This document shows, piece after piece, positions 24,657-33,903 of a stretch of 45,403 nt of DNA (positions are counted from its first letter, which is position 1; every line of letters starts with the position of its first letter). Origin of the DNA: an uncultured Cytophagales bacterium (GTDB lineage Bacteria; Bacteroidota; Bacteroidia; Cytophagales; Thermonemataceae); contig CALEMF010000007.1 in the NCBI GenBank assembly GCA_937911505.1, forward strand, positions 1 to 45,403. The letters run 5' to 3'. The notes under the pieces were generated by a model. That model made no database searches. It was not told the DNA's origin and was given only the letters and a program-made list of their open reading frames with translations. The translations under genes and the position numbers were made by a program.

Positions 24657-24738
24657 TACCCGGGGCCGGGGTCGAACCGGCACTCCTTGCGGAACACGAG
24701 TTTGAGTCGTGCGCGTCTACCAATTCCGCCACCCGGGC
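24657..24738 (-). tRNA. tRNA-Leu (anticodon CAA)
   Basis: Read on the minus strand, the acceptor stem is GCCCGGG with CCCGGGT and discriminator A. The D arm contains GGAATTGGTAGACGC. The anticodon stem is CACGA/TCGTG with loop CTCAAAC, so the anticodon is CAA (decoding UUG). There is a long variable arm with TCC/GGA and a T arm GCCGG-TTCGACC-CCGGC. The long variable arm is expected for leucine. CCA is not encoded. Confidence 0.95.
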
Positions 24739-30531: not shown

Positions 30532-30562
30532 TTTCTGATGAAGGCTTTTTTTTGCATCTTTG
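30532..30562 (+). promoter_or_regulatory. infC promoter
   Basis: TTTC (30532-30535) is 19 bases before CATCTTTG (30555-30562), seven of eight positions of the -7 consensus. Transcription would start near 30567, leaving a leader of about 45 bases before the ATT start. Confidence 0.5.
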
Positions 30563-30601
30563 CAAAACAATCGACAATTTTTTATATCTAAAACAAAATT
30601 C

Positions 30602-30614
30602 GGAGGTTACCATT
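30602..30614 (+). promoter_or_regulatory. Strong Shine-Dalgarno and ATT start codon of infC
   Basis: GGAGGT (30602-30607) is followed by four bases and ATT (30612-30614). A strong Shine-Dalgarno is unusual in this window, where most genes lack one, and here it selects the non-canonical start. Confidence 0.75.
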
Positions 30615-31172
30615 AGCAGAATAAACAACAGAAATAGAAGAAATTACAGAGGGAAGAAAGAAGAACCCTATAGAGTAAATAAAAAAATTAGAGTACCGCA
30701 AGTACGTTTGGTAGGCGACAACGTAGAGCAAGGCATCTATAATACAGAAGACGCCTTAAAAATTGCCCAAGACTTGGGGCTTGATTTAGTAGAGATTTCT
30801 CCTAAAGCTGATCCCCCTGTTTGTCGTGCGACAGATTATTCGAAATTCAAGTACGAACAAAAGAAAAAACAAAAGGAACTCAAGGCTAAAACCCAAAAAG
30901 TGGTCGTAAAAGAAATACGCTTTGGGCCTAATACGGATGATCACGACTTTAATTTTAAACTGAAGCACGCAGAGAACTTCTTAAAAGAAGGGGCCAAAGT
31001 GAGGGCTTATGTACAGTTTGTAGGACGTACAATTGTATTTAAGGATAGGGGTTTCAACTTGCTCAAACGTTTTATAGGAGAACTAGAGGAGCTCGGAAAA
31101 GTAGAGCAAGCGCCAAAACTAGAAGGAAAGAAAATGTCTGTGATTCTTACACCTAAAGCAGGTAAAAAGTAA
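30612..31172 (+). CDS. infC: Translation initiation factor IF-3, AUU start
   Basis: The 186 residues from ATT 30612 begin with [22 protein letters not shown] and contain the IF-3 N-domain ([24 protein letters not shown]), the lysine-rich linker and the C-domain ([21 protein letters not shown], and [13 protein letters not shown]). IF-3 checks start codons and keeps subunits apart. A frame starting at TTG 30552 lies before the predicted transcription start. AUU is the known autoregulatory start of infC in E. coli. No rpmI/rplT follow. Confidence 0.93.
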
Positions 31173-31344: not shown

Positions 31345-32586
31345 TTACTGCTTTACAATTTTCTCTTGTAAAATCACGCCCTTCCTCCCTACAACTTTTA
31401 GAAGATAAATACCACTTTCTATCCTAGGTAAGGAGAGTACCACCACTGATGTATTTTCCTGTAAGAGGTGTGTATGGATAACCTTTCCCACCATATCCGT
31501 GATGATTATCTCTCTAGCAAGTGCTTTGCTATCCAAAGTAATGGTTAAATTCGTGTGAAAAGGATTAGGACTCATAACAAATTGAGAAGAATAAGGAAAT
31601 ACAGCTTGGGGTTGGCTGTAAGTGACTTCTCCACTAGCCGCTACGATTTTTAAACGATAATAGGTAATACCTTCTGTAGGAAGCGCTGTCTCCTCAAACG
31701 TATACACTTCTTGCGAATGGTAGGCTACTTGATGGATCGTCTCGAAGGTAAGTAGGTCAGTGGCTTTTTGTACCTCGAAGTGGGTAATCTGGGAGGTTGG
31801 GTTTAGTTGCCAAGTGAGTTGTACTGCGTTAGGGAGTGCCTGTACTTGAAAAGATACTAAAGTAATAGGCAAGGGTACAAAAGGCTCGATAGAGACATCA
31901 TCAATGAAAACATCGGCACCAGTACCACCGTTTGTGTGATCTTCTACTGGCTCCCAATAGCCGAGCATCATGTATTGCTCCCCTCCACTAGCCGTGTAAA
32001 TGCCTTCTATCTTTGTCCAGTTATCTGTATCAGTGATGTAGTTACCTGTAGCGTTTCTAAATTGCGGTACAGGCGCTGGAGAGGGTAAACCGAAACCACT
32101 AGGTACATATTTAGTAGGAGAGAAGTAAATACCTAAGCCGTCAGAAGCATCTGCACTTTCAGAACGACTCGCCCAAAAACTCACTACGTAGGATTGTCCT
32201 GCCTGTAAAGGTGCTTTAAGCCGCACACCGATGTAATCTGCCAACCAGTAACAGCGCATCCAGATACAATGACGACCCGTGCGTGGGGTCTGATTGGCCG
32301 ATGTATTGTAACCATCACAGGCAAAGGTACCAGTACCAGTAGGGGCACAATCACAAATGCTAAAGAGATCAGGAGACATCCCCCCTTGGTACCAATCGCT
32401 AAGGCGATCTTCTAGCTTGTCACCGAAGCCTGTTACATAGCTCGTCCAAGCACAACCATCATTAAACGTGCTACCATCGAAAGAGACGTTATCCTCAAAG
32501 CTAGGATTAGGAACAAGATTTTGGGCAGGAGTAGAAAAAGTGAAGAATAAAAAAATGAAAGATAAACATAAGGAACGCGTAAGCAT
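31345..32586 (-). CDS. T9SS-secreted protein with type A sorting domain
   Basis: The 413-residue precursor has a signal peptide ending near TPAQ (22). An N-terminal jelly-roll-like domain (NLVPNPSFED, then a cysteine-rich stretch at about 74-112 and LQAGQSYVVSFWASRSES) is followed by a short Fn3-like module starting LPITLVSFQVQALPNAVQLTW and a type A C-terminal domain (NPFHTNLTITLD through to the end). It is exported by the Sec system, then across the outer membrane by T9SS, where the sorting domain is cleaved and the protein anchored. It is preceded by a cobalamin riboswitch, which is not expected for this family. Confidence 0.88.
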   Translation of the reverse strand: MLTRSLCLSFIFLFFTFSTPAQNLVPNPSFEDNVSFDGSTFNDGCAWTSYVTGFGDKLEDRLSDWYQGGMSPDLFSICDCAPTGTGTFACDGYNTSANQTPRTGRHCIWMRCYWLADYIGVRLKAPLQAGQSYVVSFWASRSESADASDGLGIYFSPTKYVPSGFGLPSPAPVPQFRNATGNYITDTDNWTKIEGIYTASGGEQYMMLGYWEPVEDHTNGGTGADVFIDDVSIEPFVPLPITLVSFQVQALPNAVQLTWQLNPTSQITHFEVQKATDLLTFETIHQVAYHSQEVYTFEETALPTEGITYYRLKIVAASGEVTYSQPQAVFPYSSQFVMSPNPFHTNLTITLDSKALAREIIITDMVGKVIHTHLLQENTSVVVLSLPRIESGIYLLKVVGRKGVILQEKIVKQ

Positions 32587-32601
32587 ATCTACTTAATTTT
32601 T

Positions 32602-32623
32602 AGTGTGAAAAAAACGCCACACT
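32602..32623 (-). promoter_or_regulatory. Hairpin just before the start of the riboswitch-controlled gene
   Basis: AGTGTG (32602-32607) and CACACT (32618-32623) form a stem about 15-37 bases before the ATG at 32586. It could shield the ribosome-entry region in one state of the leader. No T-tract, so a terminator is unlikely. Confidence 0.35.
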
Positions 32624-32772
32624 TTACGCATTCTCCATGAAGGGTGCTTCAAATCTACAAGCAACTGTATTAACCCTACCTTAGGGAAGGTACACAGTCG
32701 TATTTGACTATCTACTTGATAAATATCGAAGACAACAGCTCTAGAGCGCGAAAGCGTGGTCTATGAATGCGA

Positions 32773-32960
32773 TAGGCAGGTCTCCTGGCTTACCTCACTT
32801 TTACTTACCTTCCCATTTCTGAAGAAACAGTGGTTTGCGGTGCAAAAGCATTTGTTGAAGATCAACGCGAGGTTTACAGTTGCGCGTCAGCTCGTGATTT
32901 ACACACGATTCCCTTTTAAGGGGTTGTTACACCCCACCCATACAAAAGTAAAGGTAACCG
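32773..32960 (-). promoter_or_regulatory. Adenosylcobalamin (B12) riboswitch
   Basis: On the minus strand the conserved elements occur in order: AAAAGGGAAT (plus 32908-32917), GCTGACGCGCAACTGTAAACC (plus 32871-32891 read in reverse), ACCACTG (32828-32834), GGGAAGG (32808-32814) and the B12 box GCCAGGAGACCTGCC (32775-32789). A GGGG/CCCC helix (32920-32935) sits near the 5' side. The leader then runs about 190 bases to the ATG at 32586. CCTTCCC at 32684-32690 (reverse) is perfectly complementary to GGGAAGG. The 5' edge is approximate. Confidence 0.93.
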
Positions 32961-33018
32961 AAAAATGCTTACAAAGTAGTAATAATGCGCTACTTTATAT
33001 AAAATAGATTTTCTTGAA

Positions 33019-33903
33019 TTAGGGTATTACTAAAACTAAGTCCTTTTCGAGCCGCTCCAATGATTGAGGATCGTGAGAAGGTAAATATACCATCGGGTGT
33101 TGGTGGGCATACTTTTTTATGGCTTGGTAGGCTTTTTTAGCCTGTTTGAAGCTTTGATGGGCACCTGCCAAAACATTATTGACAAGCTGGTTTTGATCGT
33201 AGGTGGCGTCGCCTGCTAGTAAATAATGAAGCGACGCAGACTGAACTAGTACAGAGCAATGCCCCATCGTATGACCGGGGGTGTGTACAAGCTGTATTTC
33301 GCCCGATTGTGTAAGGGCTTTTGATAAAGAAAAGTGAGAATACTCAGAAGAAAGCGTTGCTAACTTCGGTGTAAACCAGTCAGGATATAGACTGGGTAAT
33401 GTAAAACTAGGCTTTTCCCATTCTAAGCGATTGATTAGTATATCATTATGCTCGAAATAGTGGAGCCCGTCAAAGTGATCTAGGTGTAAGTGGGTAAGAA
33501 TTACTTGCTTAATATCAGAAAGTGTATAGCCCAAAGCGGTAAGTTGTGGCCCTACCTCTTCTTCAGACTTTATCTGAAACTGAAAAGGTTTCATCTTAAG
33601 ATAATGGAGTAAGAACCCCTCGAACTTAAAGAACCCTTCTTCTTTGAAATAGTCTTCCTCAAGTACTTTGATATTTTCTCCTGTATCGACTACAAAAACA
33701 CCCTCTGGGTGATCAATCACCCAAACGAGAATGGGGAGTGGCATCGTCCAGTGGGTATCAAGTAAGAGATTGAGCATCGCAAAAGGTTCGCTACCTTTGG
33801 CTGTTTTGAAAGTCGTTTTCACACGTACTGTTCCAGTAGAAAAACCGTGGAGATAGCCTTCTCCTTCTAAAAATCTTAATGGCTTTGAATATACACGTTG
33901 CAT
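33019..33903 (-). CDS. Metallo-beta-lactamase-fold hydrolase, AHL-lactonase-like
   Basis: The 294-residue enzyme carries HLHLDH (His138, His140, Asp142, His143), HTPGHTMGHCSV, LLAGDATYD and a terminal YLPSHDPQSL: the dinuclear zinc ligands of the AiiA/AttM lactonase branch. Those enzymes open the lactone ring of acyl-homoserine lactones; other lactones or esters are equally possible here. No signal peptide, so it is probably cytoplasmic. It follows a Crp-like regulator gene on the same strand by 66 bases, with a palindrome between. Confidence 0.85.
   Translation of the reverse strand: MQRVYSKPLRFLEGEGYLHGFSTGTVRVKTTFKTAKGSEPFAMLNLLLDTHWTMPLPILVWVIDHPEGVFVVDTGENIKVLEEDYFKEEGFFKFEGFLLHYLKMKPFQFQIKSEEEVGPQLTALGYTLSDIKQVILTHLHLDHFDGLHYFEHNDILINRLEWEKPSFTLPSLYPDWFTPKLATLSSEYSHFSLSKALTQSGEIQLVHTPGHTMGHCSVLVQSASLHYLLAGDATYDQNQLVNNVLAGAHQSFKQAKKAYQAIKKYAHQHPMVYLPSHDPQSLERLEKDLVLVIP

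Follow-up and report, generated by a model that had tools for sequence, protein, structure and literature searches.

A cobalamin riboswitch in front of a gene for a T9SS-tailed protein

The window analyzed here is the whole stretch of 45,403 nucleotides (nt) of contig CALEMF010000007.1 (assembly GCA_937911505.1), from an uncultured Cytophagales bacterium of the Thermonemataceae, and the subject of this work is a cobalamin riboswitch on its minus strand together with the gene that follows it, encoding a protein (P0001) that ends in a sorting domain of the type IX secretion system (T9SS). A first-pass annotation, made from the sequence letters, had placed an adenosylcobalamin riboswitch here, and the covariance search bears this out: cmscan of the window returned RF00174 (Cobalamin) with 99 bits against a gathering threshold of 31.5 (E 1.1e-23), in an alignment spanning the entire model (positions 1-189 of 189). 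The B12 box AGCCAGGAGACCTGCC was found in the aptamer, and the outer flank helix shows weak pairing in the alignment to the model. The interval in question, 32587-33018, is the exact gap between two minus-strand open reading frames (ORFs), 33019-33903 and 31345-32586. P0001, the product of the latter, is encoded by the next gene on the minus strand, its start codon lying 171 nt from the end of the aptamer, and the ORF after that one (30552-31172) is convergent, on the plus strand, so that P0001 is the sole adjacent gene that the switch can serve, as the annotation had also maintained.

The tail of P0001 exceeds the cut-offs of both models for T9SS type A sorting domains (PF18962, 34.9 bits against 27 in Pfam; TIGR04183, 44.5 bits against 23 in NCBIfam). 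Its N-terminus, as read from the sequence and from the structure model, is hydrophobic, ends in ...TPAQ and forms a helix at residues 4-17. The N-terminal domain (residues 22-235) had been called cysteine-rich, and it does hold six cysteines; the term is a mild overstatement, because only C45 and C78 are invariant in an alignment of 11 sequences (A2). A structure model derived from a 93-sequence alignment predicts a beta-sandwich whose nearest folds are carbohydrate-binding modules (CBMs), namely CBM4/16; the fold obtained from a six-sequence alignment was poor (predicted local distance difference test score of 53.7) and was set aside in its favor. In Pfam, CBM_4_9 (PF02018) reaches 15 bits in P0001, below the cut-off of 25.9, and a sequence search of the PDB with P0001 (E up to 10) gave 8glk_D as the sole match, on the C-terminal part. 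The coordinates of all these features are collected in Table 1.

Table 1. Features of the riboswitch locus in the window.
Feature	Position	Strand	Remarks
Predicted -7 box TACTTTTG	32943..32950	-	fits the Bacteroidota promoter consensus TAnnTTTG; prediction
Cobalamin riboswitch aptamer (RF00174)	32758..32956	-	99 bits, full model; one of two in the genome
Downstream element with GCUUUCG	32747..32758	-	follows the B12 box
Predicted hairpin around the start codon, stem GAAUGCGUAA / UUACGCGUUC	32573..32633	-	from folding
P0001 gene, 413 residues	31345..32586	-	hydrophobic N-terminus, CBM-like jelly-roll, fibronectin type III (FnIII) domain, T9SS tail
N-terminal jelly-roll domain, residues 22-235	31882..32523	-	predicted fold
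T9SS type A sorting domain, residues 340-413 plus stop	31345..31569	-	PF18962, TIGR04183

The pairing recurs in other Bacteroidota

When P0001 by itself was searched against genome contigs, no relative was confirmed, but the same contigs yielded 78 loci to a profile made from 19 homologs (L034-L111; loci carry L and genomes G numbers here). RF00174 lies directly upstream, on the same strand, in five of the 11 homolog loci scanned with Rfam, which come from a Chitinophagales metagenome-assembled genome (MAG; L034), a Flavobacteriales MAG (L035), Chitinophagaceae (L036 and L039) and a Crocinitomicaceae MAG (L040). These five aptamers score 89-100 bits and start about 340-395 nt ahead of the gene, the distance from aptamer to start codon being 146-155 nt in L034, L036 and L039 versus 171 nt in the window. 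The comparison of homolog neighborhoods suggested by the first-pass annotation thus found the same switch before the same gene in Chitinophagales/Chitinophagaceae and Flavobacteriales/Crocinitomicaceae records, with btuB not adjoining; the contrary case, in which the homologs would always stand beside btuB, was not what these records contain, and one further homolog belongs to a riboswitch-metE operon with a DUF4430 gene.

This operon is found in G1320. When 379 genomes in the order of G292 were searched, only G292 itself and G1320 reached E 1e-45, and no switch was present within the 3.7-kb locus of the latter (L263, about 1.5 kb of flank). The wider region of G1320 showed, all on the minus strand, RF00174 (100.1 bits), metE, the family gene (421 residues) and the DUF4430 gene, the gaps between metE, the family gene and the DUF4430 gene being of 55 and 65 nt. 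The DUF4430 gene (L263:449-826) scores 31.5 bits against a cut-off of 23.8, and this domain is placed at the C-terminus of TCN (transcobalamin) proteins in PMC4350170. The DUF4430 protein of L263 is a possible bacterial transcobalamin-like B12 binder; a PDB sequence search with it returned nothing meaningful, not even transcobalamin. What the analysis establishes is that aptamer, gene order and T9SS tail are as described and that six further loci of Bacteroidota show the pairing, one of them by way of metE.

A covariance model (R1), built from the five homolog aptamers, that of the window and the other switch of the same genome, was used to extend the search; its structure has just 22 base pairs, so it leans on sequence. 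R1 detected 49 of 49 riboswitch loci in a positive control comprising all of L112-L140, six other-switch loci of homolog genomes, 13 of the 40 loci L168-L207, and L263. Over all 78 homolog loci it found those five only, besides two matches of 14-16 bits; over 19 further loci, the window's own switch only, besides two matches under 11 bits; and over 30 loci from the order of G293, only the switches of L034 and L036 themselves. Weak R1 matches (10-16 bits) in L097, L070, L026 and L162 were set aside. The notion that the window aptamer is nearest to those of the homologs was abandoned, the aptamer tree giving instead L138 and L144 by path. The L034 aptamer ranks first to that of the window in edit distance over the first 52 bases, and by no other measure, and CGCGCAAC is not restricted to family aptamers, being present also in L114, L141 and L170. 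The RNA is therefore not used to argue that switch and gene were inherited jointly.

In the five homolog genomes, the remaining switches stand, by eye, before btuB (L145, whose btuB-like gene matched the plug domain, and L147), metE (L141 and L143) or unclassified secreted proteins (L142 and L144). The assignment by eye of L142, L144 and L198 as propellers was dropped, since no Pfam propeller match was obtained. Several neighbors of the homologs deserve mention in their own right. In L035 (7206-7592) and L040 (8430-8813) the gene after that of the family resembles a 4HBT acyl-CoA thioesterase, and another of this kind stands directly behind a different cobalamin riboswitch (L207:741-1238); such a gene may relieve acyl-CoA build-up while a B12-dependent mutase idles. 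Two genes upstream of the family gene, L035 carries a periplasmic-binding-protein gene (PF01497, 4255-5037) whose product could be BtuF-like. Thiamine pyrophosphate (TPP) and S-adenosylmethionine (SAM-II) riboswitches also occur near homologs (L036:2192-2297 and L037:141-199).

Predicted control of the gene

The Bacteroidota promoter consensus TAnnTTTG, as quoted in PMC9723704, is matched by the predicted -7 box, and in the window leader a TTTG (32975-32972) lies 21 nt upstream of it. The box lies where the Rfam match begins on its 5' side and covers the first bases of the outer helix, which may therefore be unable to form in the transcript; the same edge of the aptamer holds a TAnnTTTG box in L036, in L039 and in the leader of the other riboswitch of the genome. 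On the opposite side, 51 of the 79 riboswitch loci surveyed have GCTTTCG no more than 70 nt beyond their B12 box, versus 37 of 4800 random 70-mers, and the GCUUUCG element of the window leader is likely the L13 side of the kissing loop.

The hairpin predicted around the start codon belongs to a 90-nt stretch with a z score of -3.01, one of 200 shuffles being equally stable, and the start regions of five homologous leaders gave z = -1.70, +0.85, -2.45, -2.48 and -2.06, that is, they were more stable than their shuffles in four of the five. According to PMC8941943, cobamide riboswitches shut down the genes behind them in the presence of the vitamin. The P0001 gene is thus probably repressed when B12 is plentiful, and, with the predicted hairpin hiding the start codon, repression would be translational.

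Phylogeny and distribution of the riboswitch-linked clade

In a tree of N-terminal domains (138 rows), whose bootstrap is not fully settled, a clade of 19 rows at 100/98 comprises seven riboswitch rows, that of the window protein among them, and 12 whose context is unknown. Riboswitch-negative rows are absent from it, and the rows with context require only a single change of the riboswitch label. All seven clade members with known neighbors are under a cobalamin riboswitch (six directly, L263 via metE), and no switch was found in the flank DNA of any of the 118 rows outside (90 loci), the domain being preceded by 500 nt or more in 111 of them. The flank examined reached up to 6 kb for L034-L111 where the contig permits and about 1.5 kb for the rest, so that an operon of the L263 type could be missed in the short loci. 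An earlier tree, built without L263, had already placed the window protein inside a clade of 18 rows (97/86). Two other N-domains of the window's genome (L164 and L166) fall outside the clade and have no riboswitch in their loci.

The riboswitch-linked clade is rare. Among 348 genomes in the order of G293, only G291 and G293, the profile's own sources, exceed 300 bits, the next scoring 150.9; the 379 genomes in the order of G292 yielded the source G292 plus G1320, at 165.6 bits; and among 395 genomes of the phylum the window scores 285 bits and the next 114.1. The order of the window, that of G293 (including G291) and that of G292 appear to be three separate ones, because the genome sets drawn do not overlap. 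No family member (E 1e-3) was found in 69 surveyed riboswitch loci of the window's order (29 + 40), which are the top-scoring ones and hence biased to high scores. By eye, 52 of the 65 first genes in these loci are TonB-receptor-like (four of the 40 loci gave no ORF), the remainder resembling metE, cob genes, a reductase, a thioesterase or a T9SS protein, or being unknowns. A gene resembling the small subunit of ribonucleotide reductase, also by eye, stands behind the cobalamin riboswitches of L184, L187 and L206.

Behind the second cobalamin riboswitch of the window's genome come a TonB-dependent receptor and then a protein with DUF5074, which we take to be the Pfam type of BtuG; the receptor matches a B12 receptor model best in NCBIfam (102.6 bits, below the cut-off of 599.7). 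Judging by these sequences, this appears to be a separate, ordinary-looking uptake locus. The genome also encodes three proteins with B12-binding domains, which suggests that the organism uses B12.

A possible role in B12 capture

How could these observations be integrated? The reading that we favor, if only at slightly better than an even chance, is that P0001 is a B12-repressed surface protein, exported by the T9SS, that binds B12 and aids its transfer to the BtuB uptake system. Low B12 would permit its expression and plentiful B12 would repress it; the exported protein would be anchored at the cell surface, bind B12 there and help to hand it to BtuB. The role would be a capture role like that of BtuG, BtuH or BtuJ, performed on a CBM4/16-type fold and with a T9SS tail replacing the lipoprotein anchor. 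Three considerations point to B12 binding: most genes behind the surveyed switches look like genes of B12 uptake, B12 synthesis or B12-independent enzymes; one operon joins the family gene with metE and DUF4430; and DUF4465 jelly-rolls bind B12, as stated in PMC13398666, and may end in a T9SS tail when encoded at a riboswitch locus. As a guess, the binding site could be formed by the loop near residues 112-118 together with the strand 65-69, the region of the clade-marking aromatics.

The comparison with DUF4465/BtuJ is the closest in kind. DUF4465 proteins and, by prediction, the P0001 family are secreted beta jelly-rolls from cobalamin-riboswitch loci that may bear a T9SS tail; in L193, a locus with riboswitch and btuB from the same order as the window, the DUF4465 protein has such a tail, above the Pfam cut-off. 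DUF4465 was recognized by Pfam in L191 and L193 and by eye in L175, L177, L181 and L195, always on the riboswitch strand. However, the P0001 family lacks, by eye, the NTPAYF-type loop motif in alignments A2 and A3, has CBM4/16 as its nearest folds, and has its gene first behind the switch or behind metE, whereas the DUF4465/BtuJ gene stands behind btuB. PF14717 (DUF4465) was not among the families matched by 11 members at E up to 1. It had no match in the genome of the window, and it was not found in six of seven genomes, being present in G1320. BtuH and BtuJ were not on the fold-match list of the P0001 model, an absence that carries no evidential weight.

With BtuG the proposed likeness is surface capture of B12 under a cobalamin riboswitch, but BtuG is a beta-propeller surface lipoprotein, while P0001 has another predicted fold, a T9SS tail and no btuB partner gene. 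Kinship with BtuG was ruled out, as no DUF5074 match was obtained (Pfam, E up to 10) and the model is a beta-sandwich and not a propeller. BtuH, a B12-binding lipoprotein of Bacteroides described in PMC8941943, shares with P0001 the Ig-like domains plus one globular domain and the riboswitch-linked loci; its binding domain is C-terminal, after PKD domains, whereas the globular domain of P0001 is N-terminal and accompanied by a T9SS tail. P0001 differs from CBM4, CBM16 and CBM22 in being below the Pfam cut-off, in lying behind a cobalamin riboswitch and in having no enzyme domain. Bacteroidota proteins with NLVPNPSFE-type N-domains (of T9SS, CHU_C and OmpA types) belong to the same N-domain superfamily and provide the 118 outside rows, in whose examined flanks there is no cobalamin riboswitch. 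No paper that connects a cobalamin riboswitch to a CBM-like protein with a T9SS tail was recognized in a literature search; PMC2211319 mentions a pair of unknown genes, similar to each other, that follow B12 elements in metagenomes and may or may not belong to this family. We raise, tentatively and at somewhat under an even chance, the idea of a further bacterial class of B12 capture, namely a T9SS-exported CBM-type jelly-roll without recognizable kinship to either BtuG or DUF4465. It would travel with its riboswitch as a cassette, present in three Bacteroidota orders, and be paired once with a bacterial DUF4430 protein of transcobalamin type.

Several results weigh against B12 capture. Homology with DUF4465 was tried and rejected (hhalign probabilities of 0.2% and 0.5%), and the family is not a strict replacement of DUF4465, because G1320 has both. 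DUF4430 is present in just one of seven genomes (one copy, in G1320) and in none of the other six. The L035 leader gives no support for the start-codon fold. The clade contrast is not fully even, since the flanks were widened for L263 and kept as they were for the outside rows; with the same flanks it stands at six of seven in the clade versus none of 118 outside, L263 turning positive only after widening. When the 124 rows that had context before L263 joined the set are taken alone, the window row stands apart from the other five and the label needs two changes, a single clade being neither rejected (p-AU 0.48) nor shown. The window protein has an end branch of 1.2-1.3, shows 34-36% identity in A2, and lacks, by alignment, the clade-marking F96, F112, Y116 and R223. 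Finally, the closest folds are carbohydrate-binding modules, which an adhesin would fit equally well, and a protein of about 1500 residues with VWA, SBBP, GEVED and CHU_C domains is encoded immediately downstream of the family gene in L036 (7245-11723) and L039 (7235-11740), hinting at adhesion.

The last two points bear on the main rival explanation, a B12-starvation adhesin whose glycan-binding jelly-roll would attach cells to B12-rich particles or B12 producers without binding B12. The CBM-like fold and the large partner protein speak for it, but the CBM_4_9 score remains under its cut-off, DUF4465 shows that a jelly-roll is able to bind B12 (PMC13398666), and metE and DUF4430 share an operon with a family gene; we consider this adhesin unlikely, though a serious contender. 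The long end branch raises a different alternative, that the family does serve B12 acquisition and the window copy, still under its switch, has taken on a different function at the surface. At the clade-marking aromatic positions (54, 66, 96, 112, 115 and 116) it keeps Y66, has F for Y54, carries W114 one column off the clade Trp and has lost the other three; together with its unstable placement in the tree, this loss of marking residues favors drift. Yet nothing is broken in the aptamer, the GCUUUCG element, the ORF or the T9SS tail, and the highest identity of the window protein in the tree alignments, 42-43%, is to a clade member (P0019), which leaves drift a quite improbable account.

A secreted enzyme or chaperone of B12 remodeling, or a protein turned on by B12, is very unlikely; the fold match is common to many CBMs. 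Least credible of all is a relic, as mooted in the first-pass annotation, or a chance juxtaposition, in which the switch of a lost uptake gene would now lie beside an unrelated one. In its favor, among the matches listed, the seven same-family genomes G001-G007 match P0001 in its C-terminal part only, so the P0001 gene may be a recent arrival. The pairing, however, is kept across genomes (five others plus the metE operon), aptamer and ORF are intact, and the 171 nt between aptamer and start codon are near the spacing of L034, L036 and L039, all of which renders a relic extremely improbable.

Elsewhere in the window, the minus-strand ORF at 33019-33903 encodes a protein of the metallo-beta-lactamase (MBL) fold whose top NCBIfam matches are acyl-homoserine lactone (AHL) lactonases, under their cut-offs, and a tRNA gene lies at 24657-24738 (RF00005, 52.6 bits).

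BtuG, BtuH and BtuJ are lipoproteins studied chiefly in Bacteroides of the gut. Competition for B12 must also be faced by environmental Bacteroidota with a T9SS, and the family described here offers a small and concrete capture candidate for some of them. If the B12 binding proposed for P0001 is true, jelly-roll scaffolds would have been turned to B12 on more than one occasion, and in L263 the DUF4430 gene would tie a bacterial transcobalamin-type domain to the B12 regulon.
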